From Streptomyces sp. (GTDB lineage Bacteria; Actinomycetota; Actinomycetes; Streptomycetales; Streptomycetaceae): DNA of 35,226 nt. This document shows, one piece after another, positions 3,260 to 33,122 of the stretch (positions within the stretch are counted from its first letter, which is position 1; the number at the start of each line of letters is the position of its first letter). Under the pieces are notes generated by a model. It was not told the DNA's origin. It worked only from the letters and a program-made list of their open reading frames with translations, and did no database searches. Location: positions 16,710 to 51,935 of the forward strand of contig NZ_JAPSKQ010000025.1 in assembly GCF_031181555.1 (NCBI RefSeq), read 5' to 3'. A program made the position numbers and the translations under genes.

Positions 3260-4177
3260 ATGGGTGCTCACTCCGACACGCGTACCGAAGTCTCCGACGT
3301 GCGGCGCTTCTGGGAAGGACTCGGGCTGCCCGGGCTCGTCGACGTGCACACGCACTTCATGCCGGAGCGGGTGCTGCGCAAGGTGTGGGCGTACTTCGAC
3401 GCGCTCGGACCGCTGACCGGCGGGATCGAGTGGCCGATCACCTACCGGAAGGAGGAGGGCGAACGGGCGGACCTGCTCAGGGAGTTCGGGGTGCGGGCCT
3501 TCACCGCCATGCTCTACCCGCACAAGCCGGGCATGGCGCGCCCGCTCAACGACTGGGCGGCCGGCTTCGCCGGTCGCACGCCGGACTGCCTGCACACCGC
3601 GACGCTGTTCCCCGAGCCGGGGGTCGCGGAGTACGTCCGGGACGCCGTCGAGGCGGGGGCGCGGGTGTTCAAGGCGCATGTGCAGGTGGGCGCGTACGAC
3701 CCGGCCGACGCGTCGCTGGACGAGGTCTGGGGGCTGCTCGCCGAGGCGGGTGTCCCGGTGGTGATCCACTGCGGGTCCGGTCCCGCGCCCGGCAGGCACA
3801 CCGGCCCCGGGCCGGTCGCGCGGGTGCTCGAGCGGCACCCCCGGCTCCGGCTGATCGTGGCGCACCTCGGGATGCCCGAGTACGAGGACTTCCTGGACCT
3901 CGCCGAGCGGTACGGGGAGGTGCGGCTGGACACCACCATGGCGTTCACCGACTTCAGCGAACGCATGATGCCGTTCCCCCGGCGGGCCCTGCCCCGGCTG
4001 GCCGCCCTCGGCGACCGTGTCCTGCTCGGCTCCGACTTCCCCAACATCCCGTACCCGTACGTCCACCAGCTCGATGCCCTGGAGCGGCTGGGCCTGGGGG
4101 AGGCGTGGCTGAGGGCGGTCTGCCACGACAACGCGGCCCGGCTCTTCGGCCTGCCCGGCGAAGGCCTGCCCGTCTGA
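3260..4177 (+). CDS. Amidohydrolase family (TIM-barrel metal-dependent hydrolase)
   Basis: A 305-residue amidohydrolase-2-like protein. Metal ligands are visible: DVHTH (His30, His32) after strand 1, the FKAHVQVG strand, VIHCGSGP with a ligand His, AHLGMPEYED, and the C-terminal LLGSDFPNIPY with the catalytic Asp. This places it with the ACMSD/TIM-barrel decarboxylase-hydrolase group; the substrate cannot be read from sequence. The ATG at 3260 is the first plausible start, but the nearest AGGAG is about 13 bases upstream, which is long. The gene runs parallel to the two-component genes downstream but is separated by 76 bases. Confidence 0.85.
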   Translation: MGAHSDTRTEVSDVRRFWEGLGLPGLVDVHTHFMPERVLRKVWAYFDALGPLTGGIEWPITYRKEEGERADLLREFGVRAFTAMLYPHKPGMARPLNDWAAGFAGRTPDCLHTATLFPEPGVAEYVRDAVEAGARVFKAHVQVGAYDPADASLDEVWGLLAEAGVPVVIHCGSGPAPGRHTGPGPVARVLERHPRLRLIVAHLGMPEYEDFLDLAERYGEVRLDTTMAFTDFSERMMPFPRRALPRLAALGDRVLLGSDFPNIPYPYVHQLDALERLGLGEAWLRAVCHDNAARLFGLPGEGLPV

Positions 4178-4253
4178 GGGCCTCTCACGTTTCTCAGCGA
4201 AAACACAGAGTGCCGAAAGAGTGCTCTCAGAGGACGCCGACATCGTGTGGGGC

Positions 4254-4991
4254 ATGACCACGATCTCGCCCCGGGGGCGCACCGAACTGCTGAGGCCGGA
4301 CGGGAGCCCCGTCCGCGTGCTCGTGGTGGACGACGAGCAGTCGATCACCGAACTGCTGTCCATGGCCCTGCGGTACGAGGGCTGGCAGATCCGCAGCGCG
4401 GGGGACGGCCAGGGCGCCCTCCGGGCCGCGCGGGAGTTCCGGCCCGATGCCGTCGTCCTGGACATGATGCTGCCGGACATGGACGGGCTGTCCGTCCTCG
4501 GGCGGCTGCGCCGCGAACTGCCGGACGCGTCCGTGCTGTTCCTGACCGCCAGGGACGCCGTCGAGGACCGTATCGCGGGGCTGACCGCCGGCGGCGACGA
4601 CTACGTCACCAAGCCGTTCAGCCTGGAGGAGGTCGTCGCCCGGCTGCGCGGTCTGATCCGGCGCTCCGGGGCGGCCGACCGCAGGACCGAGTCGACGCTG
4701 GTCGTCGGCGACCTCACCCTCGACGAGGACAGCCACGAGGTCACCCGGGGCGGGGAGAACATCCACCTCACCGCCACCGAGTTCGAGCTGCTGCGCTTCC
4801 TCATGCGCAACCCGCGGCGCGTGCTCAGCAAGGCGCAGATCCTCGACCGGGTCTGGTCGTACGACTTCGGCGGGCAGGCGAACGTCGTCGAGCTGTACAT
4901 CTCGTATCTGCGCAAGAAGATCGACGCCGGGCGGGATCCGATGATCCACACCCGGCGCGGTGCCGGGTACCTGCTCAAGCCCGCGGTGTGA
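4254..4991 (+). CDS. OmpR/PhoB-family response regulator
   Basis: A 245-residue response regulator. The receiver domain has the acidic pocket VVDDE (residues 24-28), the phosphoacceptor Asp70 in VVLDMMLPDMDG, and the conserved Thr and Lys in FLTARD and YVTKPF. The C-terminal winged helix has LTATEFELLRFLMRNPRRVL and the VVELYISYLRKKID/TRRGAGYLL end typical of OmpR-type DNA binding. The ATG at 4254 gives a standard N-terminus. Its stop overlaps the kinase start (GTGTGA), so the pair is translationally coupled and should act together on the glycosyltransferase genes downstream or elsewhere. Confidence 0.93.
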   Translation: MTTISPRGRTELLRPDGSPVRVLVVDDEQSITELLSMALRYEGWQIRSAGDGQGALRAAREFRPDAVVLDMMLPDMDGLSVLGRLRRELPDASVLFLTARDAVEDRIAGLTAGGDDYVTKPFSLEEVVARLRGLIRRSGAADRRTESTLVVGDLTLDEDSHEVTRGGENIHLTATEFELLRFLMRNPRRVLSKAQILDRVWSYDFGGQANVVELYISYLRKKIDAGRDPMIHTRRGAGYLLKPAV

Positions 4992-6550
4992 CGGCGGGCA
5001 GGAGACGGCCGCAGACCCTGCGGACGCGCCTCGTCGTCGCGTCCGTGGTGCTGATCGCCGTGGTGTGCGCGGTGATCGGCACGGTGACGACGCTCGCCCT
5101 GCGGTCCCATCTGTACGACCAGCTCGACGGCCGGGTGGGGGAGGTGGCCAAGCGCGCGGCGGGCGGCCCCGAGGAGGGCGGGCCGCGCCCGCGGCCCCTG
5201 GGCGACGAGGGCCCCCTCGACTTCGTCACCAAGGGCCCGCAGGGCATCGGCACCATCGGCGTCACCGTCGAGGACGGCCGGGTGACCGACGGGATCGTCG
5301 GCAAGCCCAGGACGGAGAACGGGGTCAGGACGCCCGAGGCCACCGCCCTCACCACCGCCCAGCTCGCGGCCTTCGCGACCGTCCCGCGGGACCCCGAGCC
5401 GCACACCGTGGACGTCCCGGGCCTGGGCGAGTACCGGGTGCGGTACGAGAGCGGCCGGAACGGCGCGTTCTACGTCGCCCTTCCGACCGACGACACCGAC
5501 GACACCATCAGCACCCTCATCCTGGTCGAGATCAGCGTCACCGGCGCCGGACTGGTCGCGGCCGGGATCGCCGGGTACGTCCTCGTGGGCGTCGCCACCC
5601 GCCCCCTGCGCAAGGTCGCCGCCACCGCCACCCGGGTGTCCGAACTGCCCCTGCACAGCGGTGAGGTGAACCTGGAGGAGCGCGTCCCGGAGTCCGAGTG
5701 CGATCCGCACACCGAGGTCGGCCGGGTCGGCGCCGCGCTGAACCGCATGCTCGACCACGTCCACGGCGCGCTGCACGCCCGCCAGGAGAGCGAGACGCGG
5801 GTGCGGCAGTTCGTCGCGGACGCCGGCCACGAGCTGCGCACGCCGCTGGCCTCCATCCGCGGCTACGCCGAACTCACCCGGCGCGGACGGGAGGAGGCCG
5901 GCCCCGACACCCGGCACGCGCTGCGGCGGATCGAGTCCGAGGCGGACCGGATGACCCTGCTGGTCGAAGACCTGCTGCTGCTCGCCCGACTGGACGCCGG
6001 GCGGCCCCTCCGGTTCGAGGAGACGGACCTCGTACCGCTGGTCGTGGACACCGTCAGCGACGCCCGCGCGGCCGGCCGGGACCACGTCTGGCGGCTGGAG
6101 CTGCCCGACGGCCCCGCGCCGGTGCTCGCCGACGCCGCCCGGCTCCAGCAGGTGCTGGTCAACCTGCTCGGCAACGCCCGCAGTCACACCCCGCCGGGGA
6201 CCACCGTCACCGCCCGGGTGCGCCGCAGCGGTCCCCGGGTGTGCGTGGACGTGGCGGACGACGGGCCGGGCATTGCGCCGGAGCTGCTCCCGCACGTCTT
6301 CGAACGGTTCGCGCGCGGCGACTCGGCGCGCACCCGTGCCACCGGTTCGACCGGCCTGGGGCTGGCCATCGTGCAGGCCGTGGCGACCGCGCACGACGGT
6401 GCCGTGACCGTCGACAGCGTGCCCGGCAGGACCGTGTTCACGCTCCGTCTGCCCGCCGTGGACACCCCGCCGGCACCCCCGGCACCCCCGCCGCCGCGGC
6501 CCTCACAGGCACGGCACAGCCTCACCACACGGGCGCGACAGGGTGCTTGA
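4988..6550 (+). CDS. HAMP-domain sensor histidine kinase
   Basis: A 520-residue membrane kinase. Its GTG at 4988 lies inside the stop region of the regulator gene (4-base overlap). Domains in order: transmembrane helix 1 (about 14-37), an extracytoplasmic sensor of about 135 residues, transmembrane helix 2 (about 175-200), HAMP, the HisKA box FVADAGHELRTPL with phospho-His281, then the ATPase domain with NLLGNARSHT (N box), VADDGPGIAP (G1) and GSTGLGLAIV (G2). The C-terminus is a proline-rich tail. It should autophosphorylate and pass phosphate to Asp70 of the upstream regulator; the signal is unknown. Adjacent envelope glycosyltransferases suggest an envelope-related cue (inference). Confidence 0.92.
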   Translation: MTAGRRRPQTLRTRLVVASVVLIAVVCAVIGTVTTLALRSHLYDQLDGRVGEVAKRAAGGPEEGGPRPRPLGDEGPLDFVTKGPQGIGTIGVTVEDGRVTDGIVGKPRTENGVRTPEATALTTAQLAAFATVPRDPEPHTVDVPGLGEYRVRYESGRNGAFYVALPTDDTDDTISTLILVEISVTGAGLVAAGIAGYVLVGVATRPLRKVAATATRVSELPLHSGEVNLEERVPESECDPHTEVGRVGAALNRMLDHVHGALHARQESETRVRQFVADAGHELRTPLASIRGYAELTRRGREEAGPDTRHALRRIESEADRMTLLVEDLLLLARLDAGRPLRFEETDLVPLVVDTVSDARAAGRDHVWRLELPDGPAPVLADAARLQQVLVNLLGNARSHTPPGTTVTARVRRSGPRVCVDVADDGPGIAPELLPHVFERFARGDSARTRATGSTGLGLAIVQAVATAHDGAVTVDSVPGRTVFTLRLPAVDTPPAPPAPPPPRPSQARHSLTTRARQGA

Positions 6551-6564
6551 GGAGGGTCGGTTCC

Positions 6565-7875
6565 ATGCGAACCGATTCCTCTCCCGGCACCCTGCCGGCA
6601 CGGGAGCACCTCCCGGCCGCCGGAGCCGGCACACCGGTCCTGGACGTAGTGATCCCCGTCTACAACGAGGAGAAGGACCTCCAGCCGTGCGTCCGCGGAC
6701 TGCACGAGCACCTCACCCGCACCTTCCCCTACGCGTTCCGCATCACGATCGCCGACAACGCGTCCACGGACGGCACCCCGCGCGTGGCCGGGCTGCTGGC
6801 GGAGCGGATCGCGGAGGTCAGGTCCGTCCGGCTGGAGCAGAAGGGGCGCGGCCGGGCGCTGCGGAGCGTCTGGTCGGCCTCGGACGCCCCCGTCCTCGCC
6901 TACATGGACGTGGACCTGTCCACCGACCTGAACGCGCTGCTGCCGCTGGTGGCCCCGCTGATCTCCGGCCACTCCGACCTCGCCATCGGCTCCCGGCTGA
7001 GCCGGAGTTCCCGGGTCGTGCGCGGCGCCAAACGGGAGTTCATCAGCCGTTCCTACAACCTGATCCTGCGCGGCTCGCTCCAGGCGCGGTTCTCCGACGC
7101 GCAGTGCGGGTTCAAGGCGATCCGCCGTGACGTGGCCCAGGCGCTGCTGCCGCTGGTGGAGGACACCGGCTGGTTCTTCGACACCGAACTGCTGGTGCTC
7201 GCCGAGCGGGCCGGACTGCGGATCCACGAGGTGCCGGTCGACTGGGTCGACGACCCCGACTCGACCGTGCACATCGTGCGGACGGCGACCGACGACCTCA
7301 AGGGCGTGTGGCGGGTGGGCAGGGCGCTCGCCACCGGTTCGCTGCCGCTGGACCGGCTCGCGCGTCCCTTCGGCGACGATCCGCGCGACCGGGACATCGA
7401 GGACGTGCCGCAGGGGCTGGCCCGCCAGTTGGTCGGCTTCTGCGTCGTCGGAGCGCTGTCCACCCTCTTCTACCTGCTGCTCTACAGCGGTTTCAGGTCC
7501 TTCGCCGGTTCCCAGCCGGCCAACGGACTCGCCCTGCTGGTCTCGGCGGTCGCCAACACCGCCGCCAACCGGCGGCTCACCTTCCGGGTGCGGGGGCGCA
7601 GGGGCGCGGTACGGCACCAGGCGCAGGGGCTGGTCGTCCTCGGCATCGGCCTCGTCCTGACCGGCGGTTCGCTCGCCGCGCTGAACACGGCGACGACCGA
7701 ACCCGCCCGCTCCACCGAGCTGGCGGTCCTGGTCACCGCCAACCTCGCGGCGACGGTGCTGCGGTTCCTGCTCTTCCGGGCGTGGGTGTTCCCCGAGACC
7801 GACGGGCTCCCCGCTCACGCTCCCGCCCCCGACCGCTCCCGGTCTTCCGACAACGACCCGAGGGACTCCCGATGA
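6565..7875 (+). CDS. Bifunctional GT2 glycosyltransferase-GtrA membrane protein
   Basis: A 436-residue protein; GGAGG at 6551-6555 sits 9 bases before the ATG. The N-terminal GT2 domain resembles dolichol/polyprenyl-phosphate sugar synthases: VIPVYNEE for nucleotide binding, ADNASTDGT, MDVDLSTD as the DxD region, GSRLSR, FSDAQCGFKA and WFFDTELL. The C-terminal GtrA domain (about 290-420) has four hydrophobic helices, starting LVGFCVVGALSTLFYLLLY. Such fusions load a sugar onto polyprenyl phosphate and may help flip it. The gene lies 14 bases after the kinase and overlaps the next gene by ATGA, so it should supply the lipid-linked donor for the GT39 enzyme. Confidence 0.9.
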   Translation: MRTDSSPGTLPAREHLPAAGAGTPVLDVVIPVYNEEKDLQPCVRGLHEHLTRTFPYAFRITIADNASTDGTPRVAGLLAERIAEVRSVRLEQKGRGRALRSVWSASDAPVLAYMDVDLSTDLNALLPLVAPLISGHSDLAIGSRLSRSSRVVRGAKREFISRSYNLILRGSLQARFSDAQCGFKAIRRDVAQALLPLVEDTGWFFDTELLVLAERAGLRIHEVPVDWVDDPDSTVHIVRTATDDLKGVWRVGRALATGSLPLDRLARPFGDDPRDRDIEDVPQGLARQLVGFCVVGALSTLFYLLLYSGFRSFAGSQPANGLALLVSAVANTAANRRLTFRVRGRRGAVRHQAQGLVVLGIGLVLTGGSLAALNTATTEPARSTELAVLVTANLAATVLRFLLFRAWVFPETDGLPAHAPAPDRSRSSDNDPRDSR

Positions 7876-10031
7876 CCACGCAGCACGACCGGACGAGCCC
7901 TCCGGCGGATCCCGCCGCCGGGAACCCGCCCCGCCCGGCGCCCCGGCACCGGGCCGACGCGCCCGTGCCGGACGCACCCGGGCGGTCCCCCGCCCGCGGA
8001 CCGTGGCGCGGCCGGCCCGGGGACCCCCGCTGGGCGCGCCCGGCCCTCCTCGGCCTGCTGCTGGTGACCGGTCTGCTCTACCTGTACAACCTGAGCGCCT
8101 CCGGATACGCCAACTCCTTCTACTCGGCGGCCGTCCAGGCCGGCAGCCAGTCCTGGAAGGCGTTCTTCTTCGGCTCGCTGGACGCGGCGAACGCCATCAC
8201 CGTGGACAAGCCCCCGGCCGCGCTGTGGCCGATGGGACTCTCCGTCAGGATCTTCGGCCTGAACTCCTGGGCGATCCTCGTGCCCGAGGTGCTCATGGGC
8301 GTCGGCACGGTCGCCGTCGTGCACGCGGCGGTGCGCCGCCGCTCCGGTCCGGGGGCGGGCCTGATCGCGGGCGCGGTGCTCGCGCTCACCCCGGTCGCGG
8401 CACTGATGTTCCGGTTCAACAACCCGGACGCGCTGCTGGCGCTGCTGATGTCCCTCGCCTGCCACCTCGTCGTCCGGGCCCTGGAGGACGGCCGTACGAA
8501 GTGGCTGGTGTGGGCCGGGGCCGCGATCGGGTTCGCCTTCCTCACCAAGACGCTCCAGGCGTTCCTGATCCTCCCGGCGCTCGCGCTCGCCTACGGTGTC
8601 TGCGCCCCGGTGAAGGTGCGGAAGCGGCTGGCGCAGCTGGCGCTGGCGGCCGTCGCGCTGGTCGTCTCCGGTGGCTGGTGGGTGGCGGTCGTCGAGCTGT
8701 GGCCCGCGTCCTCGCGTCCGTACATCGGCGGTTCGCAGAACAACAGCTTCCTGGAGCTGACCTTCGGCTACAACGGCCTCGGCCGGCTCAACGGCGAGGA
8801 GACCGGCAGTGTCGGAGGCGGCGGTGGCGGCACCGGTCGGTGGGGCGAGACCGGCTGGGACCGGATGTTCGACTCCGAGGTCGGCGGCCAGATCTCCTGG
8901 CTGCTGCCCGCCGCGCTGATCCTGCTCGTCGCGGGCCTCGTCCTCACCCGCGGGACCGGGCGGACCGACCCGGCCCGGAGTTCCTTCCTGGTCTGGGGCG
9001 GCTCGCTGCTGACGACCATGGCGGTCTTCAGCTTCATGGCGGGCATCTTCCACCAGTACTACACGGTGGCCCTCGCCCCCTACCTGGCGGCCGTGGTCGG
9101 CATGGGCGCGGCGGCCCTGTGGGAGAGGCGGCAGGCGACCTGGGCCGCGCTCACCCTCGCCGCCGCCGTCACGGCCACCGCGGCCTGGGGCTGGGTACTG
9201 CTGAACCGCACGCCCGGCCATCTGCCGTGGCTGAAGTGGGCGGTCCTGGTCGGCGGGCTGGTCGCGGCGCTCGGGACGGTCTTCGCGGGCCGGGTGGGAC
9301 GGCCGCTGGCGTCGGCGGCGGCCGGACTGGGGCTGGTGGCCTCACTGGCCGGTCCGGCCGCGTACACGTTCAGCACGCTGCAGGAGGGCCACACCGGTTC
9401 CATCGTCACGGCCGGTCCCGCCGGGGCGGGCATGGGCGGCACGGGCCGTCCGGCCGGCGGTCCCGGCGAGGGCCGGAACCAGCAGGGCCTGCCGGGGCGG
9501 ACCCCGCCGGGGGCGGGCGCCGACGGCACCGGCGGCTTCCCCGGCGGCGGCCCGACGGGCCGGAACGGTCAGGACGGCCGGGCCCCGCAGGACGGCACCG
9601 GCAACAGTGCCGAGACCGTCCCGCCGGGCGGTCGCGCCGACGGCGGTGACGGTGGCGGCGGCATGGGCGGGCTGCTCGGCGGCGCGAGCGTCGGCTCCGA
9701 GGCGAAGGAGCTGCTGGAAGCGGACGCCGAGGACTACACCTGGGCGGCCGCCGCGATCGGCGCCCAGAACGCCGCGAGCTACCAACTCGCCACCGGTGAG
9801 CCCGTGATGGCGATCGGCGGCTTCAACGGGACCGACCCGTCCCCGACCCTGGCCCGGTTCCGGCGGTACGTGGCGGAAGGAAGGATCCACTACTTCGTCG
9901 CCGGCGGCGGAACGGGCGGGGGCGACTCCGGCGGCTCCGCGCAGATCGCCGCGTGGGTGGCGGAGAACTTCGAGGAGGTCACGGCCGGCTCGACCACCTT
10001 CTACGACCTCACGCGGAGGACGAGCGACTGA
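7872..10031 (+). CDS. GT39/YkcB-type integral membrane glycosyltransferase
   Basis: A 719-residue GT-C fold enzyme (PMT_2/ArnT-like; YkcA/B class). After a proline-rich cytoplasmic N-terminus, helix 1 (LLGLLLVTGLLYLYNLSASG) leads into the first large loop with FFFGSLDAANAITVDKPP, characteristic of this class. About ten further membrane segments follow. An extracytoplasmic C-terminal domain (about 607-719, LEADAEDYTWAAAAIGAQNA onward) matches the conserved YkcB-type C-terminus. Residues about 514-606 are a Gly/Pro-rich, likely disordered insertion, with a second glycine run near 310. It should transfer sugar from a polyprenyl-phosphate donor to a wall or surface acceptor. The start overlaps the GT2-GtrA gene (ATGA). 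Confidence 0.9.
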   Translation: MTTQHDRTSPPADPAAGNPPRPAPRHRADAPVPDAPGRSPARGPWRGRPGDPRWARPALLGLLLVTGLLYLYNLSASGYANSFYSAAVQAGSQSWKAFFFGSLDAANAITVDKPPAALWPMGLSVRIFGLNSWAILVPEVLMGVGTVAVVHAAVRRRSGPGAGLIAGAVLALTPVAALMFRFNNPDALLALLMSLACHLVVRALEDGRTKWLVWAGAAIGFAFLTKTLQAFLILPALALAYGVCAPVKVRKRLAQLALAAVALVVSGGWWVAVVELWPASSRPYIGGSQNNSFLELTFGYNGLGRLNGEETGSVGGGGGGTGRWGETGWDRMFDSEVGGQISWLLPAALILLVAGLVLTRGTGRTDPARSSFLVWGGSLLTTMAVFSFMAGIFHQYYTVALAPYLAAVVGMGAAALWERRQATWAALTLAAAVTATAAWGWVLLNRTPGHLPWLKWAVLVGGLVAALGTVFAGRVGRPLASAAAGLGLVASLAGPAAYTFSTLQEGHTGSIVTAGPAGAGMGGTGRPAGGPGEGRNQQGLPGRTPPGAGADGTGGFPGGGPTGRNGQDGRAPQDGTGNSAETVPPGGRADGGDGGGGMGGLLGGASVGSEAKELLEADAEDYTWAAAAIGAQNAASYQLATGEPVMAIGGFNGTDPSPTLARFRRYVAEGRIHYFVAGGGTGGGDSGGSAQIAAWVAENFEEVTAGSTTFYDLTRRTSD

Positions 10032-26360: not shown

Positions 26361-27083
26361 TCAGCTCGCGCGCCAGTACCCCAGCGCGTGCATCCGCTGC
26401 TTGGGCACGCCCAGCTCCTTGCGGACGAACGCCGACAGCGCCCGGGTGGTCGTGGTGTCGCAGGAGATCCAGACGTACGGGTCCGGGCTGGCCCGCAGCA
26501 GCTCGGGCAGGTCGGCCCGCACCCGCTCGACCAGCGCCGCCCCGGCCTCCTGCCGGGGCACCTCGCGCACCTCGTGCCGCTCCGGGTCCGCCCGGCAGGG
26601 CAGCCCGTCGAGCGTGCCCTCGAACCAGACGGTCGCCGGAGCGGAACCCAGCGCGCCGAGCAGCGAGTTGATGGCCGGCAGCGACGCCGGGTCGCCGACC
26701 GCGAAGACGTGGGAGGGGGCGGGGCTGGGCTCCTCGAACCCCGTGCCCTGCACGGTGGCCTCGATGGTGTCCCCGGGCTTCGCCGTCCGTGCCCAGTCGC
26801 TGGCGCACCCCTCGTGCAGCGCGAACTCCAGGCTGAAGGTGCCGGCCGCCGGGTCCGGGTCGACCAGGGTGTACGCCCGCTGGTGCGGCCTGCCCGCGTT
26901 GTCGAACCACAGCCGCACCCACATCGTCGGGTGGACGCCGGTCGCCGCCAGCATCCCGCCGTCGGCGAAGTGCACCCGCCGGTACGCGGCGGTGACGTCC
27001 TCGGCCCCCGTCACGGTGAACCTGAAGTCCTTCGCGCGCAGCAGTTTGAGGACCGCGCCCTCCCAACCCCGCCCCTGCCCCAT
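26361..27083 (-). CDS. Siderophore-interacting protein (FAD ferric-siderophore reductase)
   Basis: A 240-residue flavoprotein of the SIP/ViuB family, which reduces Fe(III)-siderophores in the cytoplasm using NAD(P)H. RAYTLVDPD carries the FAD-binding RxYT/S motif, the LHEGCASDWARTAKPGD part follows, and FAVGDPASLPAINSLL and WISCDTTTTRALSAFVR form the NAD(P)H-binding side. The ATG at 27083 has GAGGA 4 bases upstream; a GTG at 27116 is an alternative that would add 11 residues. It is divergent from the acylase operon, with an iron box between, so it should be derepressed when iron is scarce. Confidence 0.92.
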   Translation of the reverse strand: MGQGRGWEGAVLKLLRAKDFRFTVTGAEDVTAAYRRVHFADGGMLAATGVHPTMWVRLWFDNAGRPHQRAYTLVDPDPAAGTFSLEFALHEGCASDWARTAKPGDTIEATVQGTGFEEPSPAPSHVFAVGDPASLPAINSLLGALGSAPATVWFEGTLDGLPCRADPERHEVREVPRQEAGAALVERVRADLPELLRASPDPYVWISCDTTTTRALSAFVRKELGVPKQRMHALGYWRAS

Positions 27084-27123
27084 CGCGTCCTCACCCTTCG
27101 CGTACGATTCCGCCACGGCTTAC

Positions 27124-27142
27124 TTAGGGGAGCCTAACCTAA
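27124..27142. promoter_or_regulatory. DmdR/IdeR iron box
   Basis: TTAGGGGAGCCTAACCTAA, read on the minus strand as TTAGGTTAGGCTCCCCTAA, matches the DmdR1 consensus TTAGGTTAGGCTCACCTAA at 18 of 19 positions. It overlaps the TAGGCT -10-like element of the divergent promoter of the reductase gene and stands 17 bases before the acylase GTG. With Fe(II)-loaded repressor bound it should silence both directions. Confidence 0.92.
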
Positions 27143-27159: not shown

Positions 27160-29898
27160 GTGGCCGGCGAGATCTTTCGGGACCCCTGGGGCATCCCCCA
27201 TCTGCGCGCGGACGACGCGAACGAACTCGCCCGCGTCCAGGGCCGGGTCACCGCCCTCGACCGGGCCTGGCAATTGGAGGTCGAACGGCACCGGGCGCAG
27301 GGCACCTCGGCGTCCTTCCTCGGCCCCGAGGCCCTGTCCTGGGACCGCTTCGTCCGCCGCGCCCGCCTGGCCGACACGGCCCGCCGCTGCTGGGCCGGAC
27401 TGGAGCGGCGGGACCCGGAGACGGCCGACTGGGTCCGGGCCTACGTGGCGGGCGTGAACGAGGGGCTGGGCACCGCCACCGCCCCCGAGTTCGCCCGCGT
27501 GGGCCTCGCCCCCGGCCGCTGGGAGCCCTGGACCCCGCTCGGGATCTGGCTCGCCACCCACATCCTCTTCGCCGGCTTCCCCGCCAAGCTGTGGCGCGAG
27601 CACGTCGCCACCCACCTCGGCGCGGACGCCGTCGGCCTGTTCGCCACCGACGGCCCCGGCACCTCGGGCAGCAACGGCTGGCTCGTCGCCGGGGAGCGCA
27701 CGGTCACCGGGCAGGCGGTCATCGCCGGAGACCCGCACCGCTTCATCGAGGACCCCGGCGTCTACCAGCAGGTCCGCCTCTCCTGCCCGGAGTTCGACGT
27801 CGTCGGCCTCGCCGTGCCCGGTGTCCCCGGCATCGCCCACTTCGGCCACACCGGCACGGTCGCCTGGGCCATCACCAACGCCATGGCCGACTACCAGGAC
27901 CTCTACCGCGAGCGGCTGCGGCGCACCGGCGCCGGGGTGGAGGCGCTCGGCCCGGACGGGACGTGGCACCGGGCCGCCCGGCACACCGAGACCGTCGATG
28001 TGGCGGGCGAGGAGCCGGTCGAGGTCGAGGTCGTCGAGACCGACCGCGGCCCGGTCGTCATCGGCGGCCCCGAGGGCCTCGACGACGGGGTGTCCCGGCC
28101 CGGCGGACCCCCGCTCGCCGTCGCCCTGCGCTACCCGCCCCGCGTCACCGGCGACCTGGGCTTCGGCGCCCTGCTGCCGCTGCTGCGGGCCCGCCGCGTC
28201 GCCGACGTGGACCGGGCCGCCGACCGGTGGGCCGAGCCGGTCAACGTGCTCCTGGCCGCCGACACCGAGGGCGGCACCCTGCACCGGGTGGCCGGCCGGG
28301 TCCCGGTGCGCTCCGAGGCCAACCGGACCCGCCTGGTGCCGGCCTGGGAGCCCGGTCACGAGTGGCGGGGCTGGCACGAGCCACCGCGCGCCGGACTGAC
28401 CGACGGGGTCGCCGTGATGGCGAACCAGCGCGGCCCCGCGGCCCCGCTCGGCGTCGAGTTCGCCCCGCCGCACCGCGCCGACCGCATCACCGCGCTGCTG
28501 GCCGGGCGGGAGCGCTGGTCCGCCGCCGACATGCCCGCGATCCACACGGACACCCACCTCGCCTCCGCCGCCGCCCTGCTGGACCGCCTCGCGGCCCTCG
28601 ACGGCACGGGCCTGAGCGGCCCGGCCGCCTCCCTGCGCGACCGCCTCCTGCGCTGGAACCGCCGCATGGACGCGGACAGCGCCGACGCGGCCGCCTTCGC
28701 GGCGGTGCGCGGCGCGGTCGTACGGCACCTCGCGGCGCACCCCGCGTTCGCCGCGGCGGCCACGCCGCCCGCGTACCCGGAGGTCTTCCGGCCCTGGCTC
28801 GCGCTGGTCCCGCGCATCGGCCACGCCCTCGAACACCTCCTCACCGCGGAGGAGCTGTTCGGTGTCGACCGTCCGGCGGCCGTCCGCGCGGCCCTGGAGG
28901 AGGTGGCCGCCCGGCCGCCCGCCGGCACCTGGGGCGACACCCACCGCCTGGTCCCCTGGCGGGCCCTGCCCCCGGCCACGCCGTACGACGAGCCCGGCCT
29001 GTCCGGCGACCACGACTGCGTGCTGTGCACCTCCGCCGTGCCCGGCCTGACCGACCTCGCCGCGCGCGGCCCGGCCGCCCGGTACGTCTGGGACCTGGCC
29101 CGGCGCGAGGATAGCCGCTGGGTGGTGCCGTTCGGCGTCTCGGGCATCCCCGGATCCCCTCACCACCGCGACCAGCAGCCCCTGTGGCTTGCGGGGGACC
29201 TGGTCCCGGTCGTCACCGACTGGGACCGGCTGCACAGGGAAGCCGACGGGCTTTCGCGAAGAACCGAGGAACGACCGACGAGGAGACCGATGTCCGACCC
29301 CTACGCCTCCCGCGCGGCCGTCCACGAGCAGGTGGTCGACGGCTTCGGCGCCGTGCGCATCCTGCCGCTGGACGCCCGGGCCGACGCCCCCCTGCTGCAC
29401 CGCTGGGTGAGCGAGGAACGCGCCGCCTTCTGGGGCATGAACGGCCTCACCGAGGAGCGGGTCGCCGAGATCTACGCCCACATGGACACGCTCGACACGC
29501 ACCACGCCTTCCTCGTCCTCAAGGACGGCACACCGGCCGCGCTGCTCCAGACATACGAGCCGGAGGCCGACCGGGTCGGCGAGTGCTACCCCGTCGAACC
29601 CGGCGACATCGGCGTCCACCTGCTGCTCGCCCCCGCCGAGCCGGGCGGGGAACGTCCCGGCTGGACCGGCGGGCTGACCGCCGCCATCATCACGTACGTG
29701 CTGCTGGGCCTGGGCCGCGAGCGCGTGGTGGTCGACCCCGACGTGGCCAACGAGAAGGCGGTCGCCCGCTTCCTGAAGCAGGGCTTCACGGCCGGTCCCG
29801 AGGTCGTGCTGCCGGAGGTCGACCTGCCCGACGTGTATCTCCCGGCGAAGAAAGCCCGACTCGCCTTCCTCACCCGCGAGGTAGCCTTCGGCGCGTGA
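27160..29898 (+). CDS. Penicillin-acylase-family Ntn hydrolase fused to an IucB-like acetyltransferase
   Basis: A 912-residue protein; GAGGG stands 4 bases before the GTG. Residues 1 to about 700 are a penicillin-acylase-type Ntn hydrolase: IFRDPWGIPHLRAD at the start, then PGTSGSNGW with the predicted nucleophile Ser171 exposed by self-cleavage, DPHRF, and ITNAMADYQD with an Asn for the oxyanion hole. No signal peptide, so cytoplasmic. Residues about 711-912 (MSDPYASRAAVHEQ) are a complete GNAT domain of the IucB/AlcB siderophore type (WVSEERAAFWGMNG, GDIGVHLLLAP, NEKAVARFLKQGF). No stop separates the halves in any forward frame. Stand-alone homologues would make two proteins. Likely role: acyl editing of an amide or hydroxamate siderophore (inference). 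Confidence 0.88.
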   Translation: MAGEIFRDPWGIPHLRADDANELARVQGRVTALDRAWQLEVERHRAQGTSASFLGPEALSWDRFVRRARLADTARRCWAGLERRDPETADWVRAYVAGVNEGLGTATAPEFARVGLAPGRWEPWTPLGIWLATHILFAGFPAKLWREHVATHLGADAVGLFATDGPGTSGSNGWLVAGERTVTGQAVIAGDPHRFIEDPGVYQQVRLSCPEFDVVGLAVPGVPGIAHFGHTGTVAWAITNAMADYQDLYRERLRRTGAGVEALGPDGTWHRAARHTETVDVAGEEPVEVEVVETDRGPVVIGGPEGLDDGVSRPGGPPLAVALRYPPRVTGDLGFGALLPLLRARRVADVDRAADRWAEPVNVLLAADTEGGTLHRVAGRVPVRSEANRTRLVPAWEPGHEWRGWHEPPRAGLTDGVAVMANQRGPAAPLGVEFAPPHRADRITALLAGRERWSAADMPAIHTDTHLASAAALLDRLAALDGTGLSGPAASLRDRLLRWNRRMDADSADAAAFAAVRGAVVRHLAAHPAFAAAATPPAYPEVFRPWLALVPRIGHALEHLLTAEELFGVDRPAAVRAALEEVAARPPAGTWGDTHRLVPWRALPPATPYDEPGLSGDHDCVLCTSAVPGLTDLAARGPAARYVWDLARREDSRWVVPFGVSGIPGSPHHRDQQPLWLAGDLVPVVTDWDRLHREADGLSRRTEERPTRRPMSDPYASRAAVHEQVVDGFGAVRILPLDARADAPLLHRWVSEERAAFWGMNGLTEERVAEIYAHMDTLDTHHAFLVLKDGTPAALLQTYEPEADRVGECYPVEPGDIGVHLLLAPAEPGGERPGWTGGLTAAIITYVLLGLGRERVVVDPDVANEKAVARFLKQGFTAGPEVVLPEVDLPDVYLPAKKARLAFLTREVAFGA
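29280..29292 (+). promoter_or_regulatory. Internal ribosome site and ATG at the acylase-acetyltransferase junction
   Basis: GAGGAG (29280-29285) stands 4 bases before an in-frame ATG (29290-29292) exactly where the acetyltransferase domain begins (residue 711). It is a better ribosome site than that of most genes in this window. A free 202-residue acetyltransferase could therefore be made besides the fusion protein. Confidence 0.6.
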
Positions 29899-30374
29899 CC
29901 CCCGACGACCTCGTCGCCCACTACGGACTGGAGCCGATCCCCCGCGAGGGCGGACGGTTCCGGCGGACCTGGGCGGGTCCCGAGCGGCCCGACGGCCGGC
30001 CCGAGGGCACCGCCGTCGTCGCCCTGCTCACCGACGGGCCGGGAGACTTCTCCGCCCTGCACCGCCTGCCCGCCGACGAGGTCTGGCACTTCTACCTCGG
30101 CGACCCGCTCCGGATGCTCCTCCTCGCCCCCGACGGCACCGCGCGCACCCCCGTGCTGGGCCCGGACGTCCTCGGCGGCCAGCACGTCCAGCTCACCGTG
30201 CCCGCCGGCACCTGGATGGGGGCGCGGGTGGCGGAGGGCGGGGCCTGGACGCTCTTCGGCTGCACGATGGCGCCCGGCTTCACCTACGAGGGCTACGAGC
30301 ACGGGGACGCGGCGGAGCTGACGGCGCGCTACCCGGACCAGGCGGACCGGATCGCGGCCCTGTGCCGGTCATGA
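29895..30374 (+). CDS. Cupin_5 (DUF985) protein
   Basis: A 159-residue cupin of the DUF985 type: LVAHYGLEPIPREGGRFRRT at the N-terminus, LHRLPADEVWHFYLGDPLRM with the metal-binding-type DEVWHFY motif, VQLTVPAGTWMGARV, and FGCTMAPGFTYEGYE near the end. The GTG overlaps the stop of the acylase-acetyltransferase gene (GTGA), and the next gene overlaps its own stop (ATGA), so it is the middle member of a coupled operon under the iron box. Substrate and reaction are unknown. Confidence 0.9.
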   Translation: MTPDDLVAHYGLEPIPREGGRFRRTWAGPERPDGRPEGTAVVALLTDGPGDFSALHRLPADEVWHFYLGDPLRMLLLAPDGTARTPVLGPDVLGGQHVQLTVPAGTWMGARVAEGGAWTLFGCTMAPGFTYEGYEHGDAAELTARYPDQADRIAALCRS

Positions 30375-31168
30375 ACCGGCCGGGACTGCTGGAGGGGCAG
30401 GTCGCCCTGGTCACCGGCGCGGGCGGCGGCATCGGCCGGGGCATCGCCCTGCGGTTCGCCGAGGAGGGCGCCGCGGTCGCGCTGCACTGCCGTACGGCGG
30501 TGTCGTCCGCGCACGGGGCCGCCGACCGCATCCGGGCGGCGGGCGGCGAGGCCGTCGTCCTGCGCGCCGACCTGACCGACGAGGACGCCTGCCGCCGCCT
30601 GGTCGCCGAGGCGGCGGAGTGGGGCGGGGGCCGGCTGACGGCGTTGGTCAACAGCGCGGGGGTGCAGCCGGTCCGGGAACTCGCCGGGATGACGGCGGCC
30701 GAGTGGCGCGAGGTCGTGGACACCAACGTCACCAGCGTCTTCGCCTGCACCCAGGCGGCGGCGGAGCTCATGCGGGACCAGCGGGAACGGGAGCACGGCG
30801 GGCGTGCGCAGGGCGGCTCCATCACCCACGTCGCCTCCGTCGAGGCGCACAGCCCGGCGCCGGGTCACGCCCACTACTGCGCGTCCAAGGCGGCCGTGGT
30901 GATGCACGCCCGCGCGGCGGCCCTGGAGTACGGCCCGTGGGGGATCCGCGTGAACACGGTCTCGCCCGGTCTGATCGAGCGGGAGGGGCTGGCGGACGCC
31001 TGGCCGGAGGGCGTGCGCCGCTGGCGGCAGGCGTCCGCCGTGGGCCGGCTCGGCCGCCCGGAGGACGTCGGCGACGCCTGCGTGTTCCTGGCCTCCCGGC
31101 TCGCGTCCTGGGTGACGGGCCACGACCTGGTGGTGGACGGAGGGGTCTCGGCCCGGCCGACCTGGTGA
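30371..31168 (+). CDS. Short-chain dehydrogenase/reductase
   Basis: A 265-residue classical SDR. The nucleotide-binding motif TGAGGGIG (about residues 18-25), the NSAGVQP strand, a catalytic Ser in THVASVEAH, and YCASK (YxxxK) are all present, with VDGGVSARPTW at the C-terminus. It should be an NAD(P)-dependent oxidoreductase of an unknown alcohol or ketone. The ATG at 30371 overlaps the cupin stop; a GTG at 30362 is possible but less likely. It is the last gene of the run downstream of the iron box. Confidence 0.92.
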   Translation: MNRPGLLEGQVALVTGAGGGIGRGIALRFAEEGAAVALHCRTAVSSAHGAADRIRAAGGEAVVLRADLTDEDACRRLVAEAAEWGGGRLTALVNSAGVQPVRELAGMTAAEWREVVDTNVTSVFACTQAAAELMRDQREREHGGRAQGGSITHVASVEAHSPAPGHAHYCASKAAVVMHARAAALEYGPWGIRVNTVSPGLIEREGLADAWPEGVRRWRQASAVGRLGRPEDVGDACVFLASRLASWVTGHDLVVDGGVSARPTW

Positions 31169-31241: not shown

Positions 31242-33122
31242 GTGGAGCGACGGCACAGCGGGGCGGCGGTCGGGGGCCGGCGGGACCGGGCGGCGGGCCG
31301 CGGGACCCGGCGGCTCCCCCGGCTGGTGCTGCTGGGCACCGTGCTGGTCCTGCTCCTCCTCGGCGGCGCGGCCCCGGCGAGCGCCCACGCCGCCCTCCGC
31401 GGCACCGACCCCGGGGACGGAAGCGTCGTCGCGTCCGCCCCCCGGCACGTCACCCTGACCTTCACGGAGTCCGTCGGCCTGCTCGAGGACTCCTTCCGCG
31501 TCTACGGCCCCGACAACCGCCGGGTGCCCCTGGACGAGCCGCGGCACGCGGACGGCGCCCCCGACACCGCCCGGGTCGGCCTGCCCGGCGGGCTCGCCGA
31601 GGGCACCTACACGGTGGCCTGGCGGGTGGTCTCCGCCGACAGCCACCCGGTCTCCGGCGCCTTCACCTTCTCCGTCGGCAAGCCCTCGCCCACCGCACCC
31701 GCGGTGCCCGCGGAGCGGGCCGAGCACCCGGTCACCGCGAGCCTCCACGACACCGCCCGCCATCTCGCGTACCTCGCCGCCGCCCTGCTCATCGGCACGG
31801 CGGCGTTCGCGGCCCTGTGCCGTCCGCCGGACACCGCCCCGCTGCGGCTGCCGCTGCTCACCGGCTGGTGGACCCTGCTGACGGCCACGGTCGTCCTCCT
31901 CGTCCTGCGCGCCCCGTACGAGGCCGGGACGGCACCGGCCGCCGCCTTCGACGCCGCCGCCTTCGCCCGCACCCTCACCGGCCGCCCGGGACTCGCCCTG
32001 CTGGCCCGGCTGGCGCTGCTCCTGCTGACGGCGGCGGCCCTCCTCCACGTCTCCCGTCGTCGCGCACCGGAACCGGAACCGGTGCCGGAACCGGGCCGGG
32101 CGTCCCGCGCGCGCCTGGCGGCGGGCGCCGCCCTGTCCGTCGGCCTCGCCCTGACCTGGGCGGCGGCCGAGCACGCCGCCGCCGGGATCCAGGTCCCGGT
32201 GGCGATGACGTCGTCCGTCCTGCACCTGCTGGCGATGGCGTGCTGGCTCGGCGGCCTGACGGCCCTGCTCCTCACCCTGTACCGCGCGAGGACCCCGCCG
32301 CCCGCCGCCACGCTCACCCGTTTCTCCCGCCTGGCCCTCGCCTCGGTGACCGTCCTCGTCGTCACCGGCGTCTACCGGTCCTGGCGCGGCCTCGGCTCCT
32401 GGACCGCGCTCACGGAGACGTCGTACGGCAGGACCCTGACCGCCAAACTCGTCGTGACGGCCGTCCTGCTGGCGGCGGCGGGGCTGTCGCGCCGCCGGAC
32501 GGCACGCCTGGTGACGGCGGAGGCACCGGTGGCGGTGACGGTGGCGGAACGGGTGCCGGAACCGGTGGGAGCGGCGGGGGCGGGCCCGGAGAAGAATCCG
32601 GGGAACGGGGAGCCGGGGAACGGGGAGCCGGACCGCCACCGTCGGGCCCTGCGGCTGTCCGTGCTGGTCGAGGCGGCCGTGGGCGTCGTGGTGCTGCTGA
32701 TCACGACGGTGCTGACCGGCACCCTCCCGGCCCGTGCGGAGGCCGAGGCCGCCGAGGCGGCTCCGGTGGCCGGACTCCCCGGCGCGTCGGCGGTCACGAT
32801 CCCCTACGACGTCGGCGTCCCCGGCGGCACGGGCCGGGTGCAGATCACGCTGGACCCGGGCCGGGTGGGCGAGAACGGCGTCCAGGCGGTGGTCTTCGGC
32901 GCCGACGGCGGCCTGGTGGCCGTACCGGAGCTCCGGCTGTCCTTCACCCTCACCGCGAAGGACGTCGGGCCCATCGACGCCGGGCTGACCGACCGGGGCG
33001 GCTACTGGGCCACCAACGATCTCACCCTGCCCCTCGAAGGCACCTGGACGATGAAGGCGACGGTCAGGGTCTCCGAGCTGGACCAGGCGAGCGAGTCACG
33101 CCAGGTGCGGATCACCCGCTGA
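31242..33122 (+). CDS. CopC-CopD fusion copper-handling membrane protein
   Basis: A 626-residue protein. After a signal peptide (about 27-48, cut after PASA) the mature chain starts His49-Ala-Ala, and Asp133 and His135 in SADSHPVSG complete a typical CopC Cu(II) site. Next comes an eight-helix CopD domain (about 165-500) and an extracytoplasmic YtkA-like domain at the C-terminus (about 530-626, LPLEGTWTMKATVRVSELDQ). GGGAGG lies about 10 bases before the GTG. It should bind Cu outside and move it across or within the membrane. The charged repeat region PGNGEPGNGEPDRH is a linker. Its end overlaps the convergent DUF72 gene. Confidence 0.9.
   Translation: MERRHSGAAVGGRRDRAAGRGTRRLPRLVLLGTVLVLLLLGGAAPASAHAALRGTDPGDGSVVASAPRHVTLTFTESVGLLEDSFRVYGPDNRRVPLDEPRHADGAPDTARVGLPGGLAEGTYTVAWRVVSADSHPVSGAFTFSVGKPSPTAPAVPAERAEHPVTASLHDTARHLAYLAAALLIGTAAFAALCRPPDTAPLRLPLLTGWWTLLTATVVLLVLRAPYEAGTAPAAAFDAAAFARTLTGRPGLALLARLALLLLTAAALLHVSRRRAPEPEPVPEPGRASRARLAAGAALSVGLALTWAAAEHAAAGIQVPVAMTSSVLHLLAMACWLGGLTALLLTLYRARTPPPAATLTRFSRLALASVTVLVVTGVYRSWRGLGSWTALTETSYGRTLTAKLVVTAVLLAAAGLSRRRTARLVTAEAPVAVTVAERVPEPVGAAGAGPEKNPGNGEPGNGEPDRHRRALRLSVLVEAAVGVVVLLITTVLTGTLPARAEAEAAEAAPVAGLPGASAVTIPYDVGVPGGTGRVQITLDPGRVGENGVQAVVFGADGGLVAVPELRLSFTLTAKDVGPIDAGLTDRGGYWATNDLTLPLEGTWTMKATVRVSELDQASESRQVRITR

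Follow-up and report, generated by a model that had tools for sequence, protein, structure and literature searches.

The open reading frame at positions 27160–29898 (forward strand) of a 35,226-nucleotide stretch of Streptomyces sp. DNA (hereafter, the window; NCBI RefSeq assembly GCF_031181555.1, contig NZ_JAPSKQ010000025.1, positions 16,710 to 51,935) is, judged from its sequence, a real and recent fusion of the acylase gene desG with the acetyltransferase gene desH, situated in an iron-controlled desferrioxamine locus. We consider it highly probable that the gene encodes a fused DesG–DesH protein for desferrioxamine B, an explanation that includes the recent origin of the fusion and the probable formation of some free DesH. 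The original prediction for this gene, made by a model without database searches, had implied that such a fusion was new; desGH fusions in Streptomyces atratus and Micrococcus CH3/CH7, together with their likely purpose, are already in print (PMC12161575). What the present analysis adds is that a one-base error is an unlikely origin of the fused frame, that fusion appears recurrent while the nearest relative has separate genes, and that a ribosome site and start codon seem to be kept in many fused linkers. The parts of the gene are as follows.

27160–29898, forward strand: desG–desH fusion; a single frame of 912 codons (912 amino acids) with a GTG start and without internal stop.
27160–27669, forward strand: alpha chain and any excised spacer of an N-terminal nucleophile (Ntn) acylase; residues 1–170, aligned with the alpha chains 35sz_A and 4hsr_A.
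27670–29229, forward strand: acylase part of the beta chain; residues 171–690, with the nucleophile Ser171 and the likely acyl pocket R194, Y202, and H227.
29230–29289, forward strand: linker; residues 691–710, in a junction 35 nucleotides (nt) longer than that of S. griseomycini.
29281–29285, forward strand: internal Shine–Dalgarno (SD) sequence AGGAG, 4 nt before the ATG at 29290.
29290–29898, forward strand: desH part with its own ATG; 202 amino acids if started there, with H820, D861, and N864 invariant (185/185 DesH rows).

The uninterrupted 912-residue frame, the absence of stops around the junction in all forward frames, and the coincidence of GAGGAG and ATG with the start of the acetyltransferase, all stated in the original prediction, were borne out. 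The stop codons around the join lie at 29896 in frame 0, at 29048 and 29408 in frame +1, and at 29112 and 30372 in frame +2, leaving 29115–29407 stop-free in every forward frame, and GAGGAG (29280–29285) precedes the ATG that encodes residue 711. In a Pfam profile search, both halves scored above cut-off: PF01804 (Penicil_amidase) covers residues 4–691 (profile positions 3–673 of 675; E-value, 1.2e-157), and PF13523 (Acetyltransf_8, an IucB-like GNAT) covers residues 739–883 (E-value, 1.1e-41). An AlphaFold2 model of the whole fusion from a 50-row alignment was poor (mean predicted local distance difference test score (pLDDT), 59.3; predicted template modelling score, 0.40), with only the GNAT half modeled well and ten-residue blocks of the acylase core at 22–34 (residues 141–200 and 601–680); therefore, no claim is made on the domain arrangement. 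In this poor model, pLDDT falls below 50 at residues 696–711.

The manner in which the two genes were joined can be read from their relatives. Among 57 loci with separate genes in which desH aligned from its third codon, desG ends 8 bp inside desH in 47, and the overlap reads ATGTCTGA in 41 of these 47. The nearest row to the window, S. griseomycini (L145), has separate overlapping genes with 90% identity in each part, and its junction reads AAG GAA ACA GAG GAG ACC GAT GTC TGA; the window has ATG TCC GAC at its junction, with the old-frame TGA changed to CGA. The window fusion would thus have arisen recently from two overlapping genes, the 35 nt of extra length moving desG into the desH frame and the T-to-C exchange removing the old TGA while the desH serine was kept. 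The earlier suggestion that a stop was lost holds for this TGA, but the event was not a bare stop loss, since it came with a frame change and the longer linker.

If the fusion were a sequencing or assembly artefact, the organism would really have two overlapping genes, as seen in the closest relative identified and in the remaining rows of its starred clade; the draft state of the assembly (328 contigs, 86.8% complete), which weighs against our interpretation, would also suit such an artefact. We give this explanation a very slight chance. The junction differs from that of the nearest relative by 35 nt and not by one base, the TGA has been lost (TCT to TCC in desH terms), and the frame that matches the relatives' desG end stays open until 30372; therefore, correcting one indel would not give desG its usual end, and more than one error would be needed. 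A one-base sequencing error as the source of the fused frame is unlikely because the ancestral desG frame appears to have lost its stop too. Moreover, fusions occur in other genomes, including the single-contig genomes G068 (L010) and G091 (L012). Separately, the desG–desH linker of S. calvus T3018 (L141; junction at 6100–6410) consists of a long proline/glycine-rich repeat in the desH frame with one TGA in one repeat unit, a locus close to fusion and still separate.

For a survey of the genus, 150 genomes were drawn, of which 89 matched at 1e-60 and 87 were used (without G012 and G050); both parts were found in 85 of 90 loci, and 15 of these 85, the window included, are fused. Orthologues with a stop at the junction in every case, which the original prediction had named as evidence against itself, are therefore not what the genus holds. 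When a named set was added, which comprises the best 80 of a longer score-ranked list and is not a fair sample (it may lack records closely similar to the window), 32 of 164 loci were fused, with a few genomes counted twice (e.g., L011 and L127). This 164-locus set leaves out L055, L067, L091, L096, and L188, which do not have both parts, and the repeats L099–L116, L028 (the same locus as L098), and L002–L009. On a DesG tree of 159 rows, from which L030, L031, L074, L097, and the duplicate L127 were dropped, 15 changes of the fused label are required (28.7 in shuffles), and starred branches force at least 9 of these; for a tree of 61 selected rows the number is 14, again with at least 9 forced. 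These counts cannot tell gain from loss, and the direction was taken from nested placement and junctions. A single clade for all 28 fused rows of the 61-row tree was rejected (p-value of the approximately unbiased test (p-AU), 9e-49), as was one uniting the window with L010, L118, L121, and L128 (p-AU, 0.0003). The desG–desH fusion seems, on these trees, to have recurred several independent times.

Fusion also extends beyond the genus. A class-wide search with a fused relative (P0002) as query at 1e-90 matched 35 of 236 genomes and 9 of 99 genera; fused loci outthe genus include L233, L234, and L236, from two other families, and Thermoactinospora rubra (L136) in the named set. With the window protein as query at 1e-100 in 100 relatives, matches were confined to its own genus. 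Some loci show other arrangements. L055 (G128) and L067 (G079) are second desG-like genes in genomes that also have a fused desGH, and no desH homologue was found in the stretch examined at either. Among plasmid records, 9 of 72,556 matched at 1e-60 and were not used for the argument; the S. clavuligerus records NZ_CP065243.1, NZ_CP065257.1, and NZ_CP065260.1 carry homologues of desG and desH, which are annotated there as two separate genes. At L098 (G007), a long opposite-strand reading frame at ~4064–5536, presumably resembling an IS110-type transposase, lies between desG and desH.

The ribosome site preserved inside the fused gene had been predicted to yield a second, free acetyltransferase. 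In the window, AGGAG-ACCG-ATG is the very site carried by close relatives with separate genes. Of 39 fused loci, 36 were scanned (without the duplicates L127, L206, and L209), of which L236 dropped out because it offered no anchor, so that 35 remained. In 17 of these 35, the linker has an in-frame ATG or GTG preceded by an SD match of at least 5 bases, against 0.49 expected from equal-length windows elsewhere in the same genes, and in 22 the match is at least 4 bases, against 2.17 expected; this excess may by itself reflect inheritance. Accordingly, the internal SD and ATG may be a fossil of the separate-gene state that produces no protein, a reading to which we give somewhat less than an even chance. 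It suits the youth of the window fusion, as judged from the separate genes of S. griseomycini, and the losses elsewhere: 13 of the 35 loci fail the 4-base rule, and while a start codon remains visible on inspection in L032, L034, and L205, 10 count as lost (L010, S. hokutonensis L118, L121, and L128; L011, L012, L125, and L126; L119 and L123), in three or four lineages. In those loci free DesH would be dispensable, which weighs against a general need for it.

Against the fossil reading stands a ten-locus fused clade around L032 (with S. fimicarius, L193), which was noticed before it was tested and is the only clade tested for persistence, a circumstance that leaves the fossil reading some room. 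All ten members have the start codon (ATG in 7, GTG in 3), and 9 of the 10 keep AGGAG; under the stricter SD rule 8 of 10 are credited, the spacing being long in L032 and the SD weaker in L034. This persistence contrasts with a linker that contains repeats and indels and has a tree length of 2.50 substitutions per site, the corresponding values for the cores being 2.48 (third positions) and 0.54 (first and second positions). Because MAFFT misaligned the SD and start of L037, so that the linker rate is slightly too high, half that rate was simulated as well. Under drift at the linker's own rate, ten starts were kept in 0.0003 of runs; start and SD were kept jointly in 0 of 20000 runs at the linker rate, in 0.0001 at half that rate, and in 0.0265 at the slow core rate. 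A conserved peptide motif in place of a start site may also account for the persistence, but the change between ATG and GTG and the variability of the surrounding positions make it less likely. The predicted second product is thus plausible for the window, whose site matches that of close relatives, and better supported for the L032 clade; retention in the window itself may reflect only a young fusion. Tentatively, and with confidence somewhat short of even, we suggest that fused desGH messages are selected for two products, a tethered DesG–DesH that replaces succinyl with acetyl on the spot and a free DesH that adds acetylation capacity, the start kept or lost among lineages tuning the ratio of desferrioxamine B to E. 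The term "internal start" has no occurrence in PMC12161575.

By eye, residues 1–170 of the acylase half contain no signal peptide, in agreement with a cytosolic location, given that the second half uses acetyl-CoA. The beta chains of solved 35sz and 4hsr begin at the residue aligned to Ser171, and the Gly-Ser-Asn autoprocessing site (G170, S171, and N172) is present in 182 of 182 DesG rows; a 742-residue beta-DesH chain (residues 171–912) is therefore expected by homology. This supports the earlier proposal that the acylase processes itself at Ser171 and leaves the acetyltransferase on the beta chain. The best match in the PDB was 35sz, named only "Penicillin acylase family protein", followed by glutaryl-7-ACA acylase and D-succinylase (these two the best with a named substrate), both of which concern dicarboxylic acyl groups. 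R194, Y202, and H227, invariant in 182 of 182 DesG rows, correspond by alignment position to R24b, Y32b, and H57b of cephalosporin acylase N176, which are described among seven residues stabilizing the productive pose of cephalosporin C (PMC6712217), and the alignment shows a DPHR motif common to the window protein and D-succinylase. The putative pocket and the PDB matches point to a dicarboxylic acyl group, for example succinyl, more than to an aryl one. An assignment to the acylase PvdQ was rejected, since NCBIfam NF051460 gave only 33.6 bits over residues 169–300 against an equivalog cut-off of 950 bits.

The pathway role of the two genes has been shown in S. coelicolor, where, as reported by Augustijn et al. 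in 2025 (PMC12161575), knock-outs established that normal production of desferrioxamine B requires both desG and desH: B falls ~1000-fold when desG is inactivated and 16-fold when desH is, with a rise in desferrioxamine E, and B returns upon complementation. What each enzyme catalyses, and that tethering is of benefit, are proposals of the same authors, according to which DesG desuccinylates N-hydroxy-N-succinylcadaverine and DesH acetylates the product (PMC12161575). In a literature search on desG/desH, this was the only paper on these genes among the matches listed. The deacylase–transacylase pair acting on one substrate that the original prediction had envisaged matches this published model. 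An older proposal, reported in PMC12161575 and PMC6401478, has DesG making aryl-capped desferrioxamines instead of desuccinylating; membership of the penicillin amidase family is compatible with it, but loss of desG removes desferrioxamine B (PMC12161575) and the three pocket residues match those of a dicarboxylyl acylase, and we regard its chance as slight.

Taking the desuccinylation model as the preferred one, we envisage that upon iron starvation a DmdR1-type repressor would leave the iron box upstream of the gene and desGH would be made; the acylase half would cut itself before Ser171 and hydrolyse N-hydroxy-N-succinylcadaverine to N-hydroxycadaverine; and the tethered GNAT half would use acetyl-CoA to convert this into N-hydroxy-N-acetylcadaverine, the cap needed for desferrioxamine B, before renewed succinylation by DesC. 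With the old desH ribosome site and ATG intact, some free DesH would probably be made too. Several points weigh against this account. Penicillin G acylases match the DesG half as well, more weakly; of the four N176 contacts compared, out of seven, H70b corresponds to N240 in the window protein; succinyl specificity is itself proposed from homology and the published model; and DesG and DesH of S. coelicolor are two chains, so that fusion is not needed for function.

The surroundings of the gene are as follows.

26361–27116, reverse strand: divergent desJ homologue, a siderophore-interacting FAD protein (PF04954 SIP, E-value 1.4e-19; partial FAD_binding_9, E-value 5.8e-11).
27124–27142, strand not assigned: iron box, a putative DmdR1/IdeR-type operator, TTAGGGGAGCCTAACCTAA, with 1 mismatch in 19 to the consensus.
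29895–30374, forward strand: cupin (DUF985) gene whose GTG start overlaps the fusion stop by 4 bp (PF06172, E-value 3.1e-38 on 29901–30374).
30362–31168, forward strand: short-chain dehydrogenase (SDR; PF13561, E-value 3e-58).

Iron boxes were scored against a 19-bp consensus. Of 182 desG upstreams, among them that of the window and with a few genomes represented twice, 160 have a box with at most 3 mismatches and 163 with at most 4, and 16 have at least 7 and are no better than the controls, in which 0 of 505 stretches had 6 or fewer; among fused genes the box is present at 3 or fewer mismatches in 29 of 39 upstreams. In the 80 named loci, of which 10 have short flanks, a divergent upstream desJ was found in 67, the cupin in 65, and the SDR in 52. 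C312, another contig of the assembly, carries in a row a binding protein, a siderophore reductase, a pyridoxal phosphate-dependent decarboxylase, a lysine/ornithine monooxygenase, an Acetyltransf_8 protein (37% identical to the acetyltransferase half of the window), and an IucA/IucC synthetase, which is the desEFABCD arrangement. The order desJ–iron box–desG–desH–cupin–SDR fits that of SCO4048–4052 as described in PMC12161575, and an iron box before the likely desG of S. venezuelae is reported in PMC6401478. From its predicted content, the locus is that of the desGH pair under iron control in Streptomyces. Downstream of the SDR gene, 31242–33122 (forward strand) encodes a 626-residue protein with CopC and CopD domains in one chain. 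On contig C205 of G000 (6996–9201), two more IucA/IucC-family genes run in opposite directions, a hint of a second locus for a siderophore made independently of non-ribosomal peptide synthetases (NIS).

Desferrioxamine B is an iron-overload drug, and DesG and DesH affect its amount relative to desferrioxamine E (PMC12161575). The independent fusions would serve as natural experiments on what is gained by tethering the two steps, and with the conserved internal starts one can test directly whether the free second enzyme must still come from a fused gene; if the two-product proposal is true, retention or loss of the internal start would tune the B to E ratio. For annotators, the case suggests that a downstream gene may still be translated separately after its fusion to the gene before it.

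Among known systems, the closest by published description is the desJGH operon of S. coelicolor (SCO4048–4050, PMC12161575), which is likewise iron-controlled and has the same two enzymes beside desJ; the genes that follow, described as sugar epimerase-like and as a dehydrogenase, also correspond to those of the window, but desG and desH are separate genes where the window has one. The fusions of S. atratus and Micrococcus, as PMC12161575 recounts them, likewise join DesG and DesH in one gene, with high local substrate concentration as the proposed advantage; the window fusion differs in adjoining the separate-gene S. griseomycini. Glutaryl-7-ACA acylase (4hsr) and D-succinylase (7eby) share with the acylase half the Ntn acylase family by sequence, DPHR, and, by name, dicarboxylic substrates, and the 4hsr beta chain starts at the aligned Ser, but their matched chains are without a GNAT domain and their natural substrates are other. 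DfoC of desferrioxamine biosynthesis (PDB ID: 5o7o; 787 amino acids), residues 26–154 of which match the GNAT half, is also a natural fusion involving an acyltransferase, whose partner, presumably an NIS synthetase domain, is not an acylase as in the window. Finally, SctQ-type genes of type III secretion reportedly yield a full-length product and a C-terminal one from an in-frame internal site, much as proposed here for fused desGH, in unrelated proteins and with no recent gene fusion.
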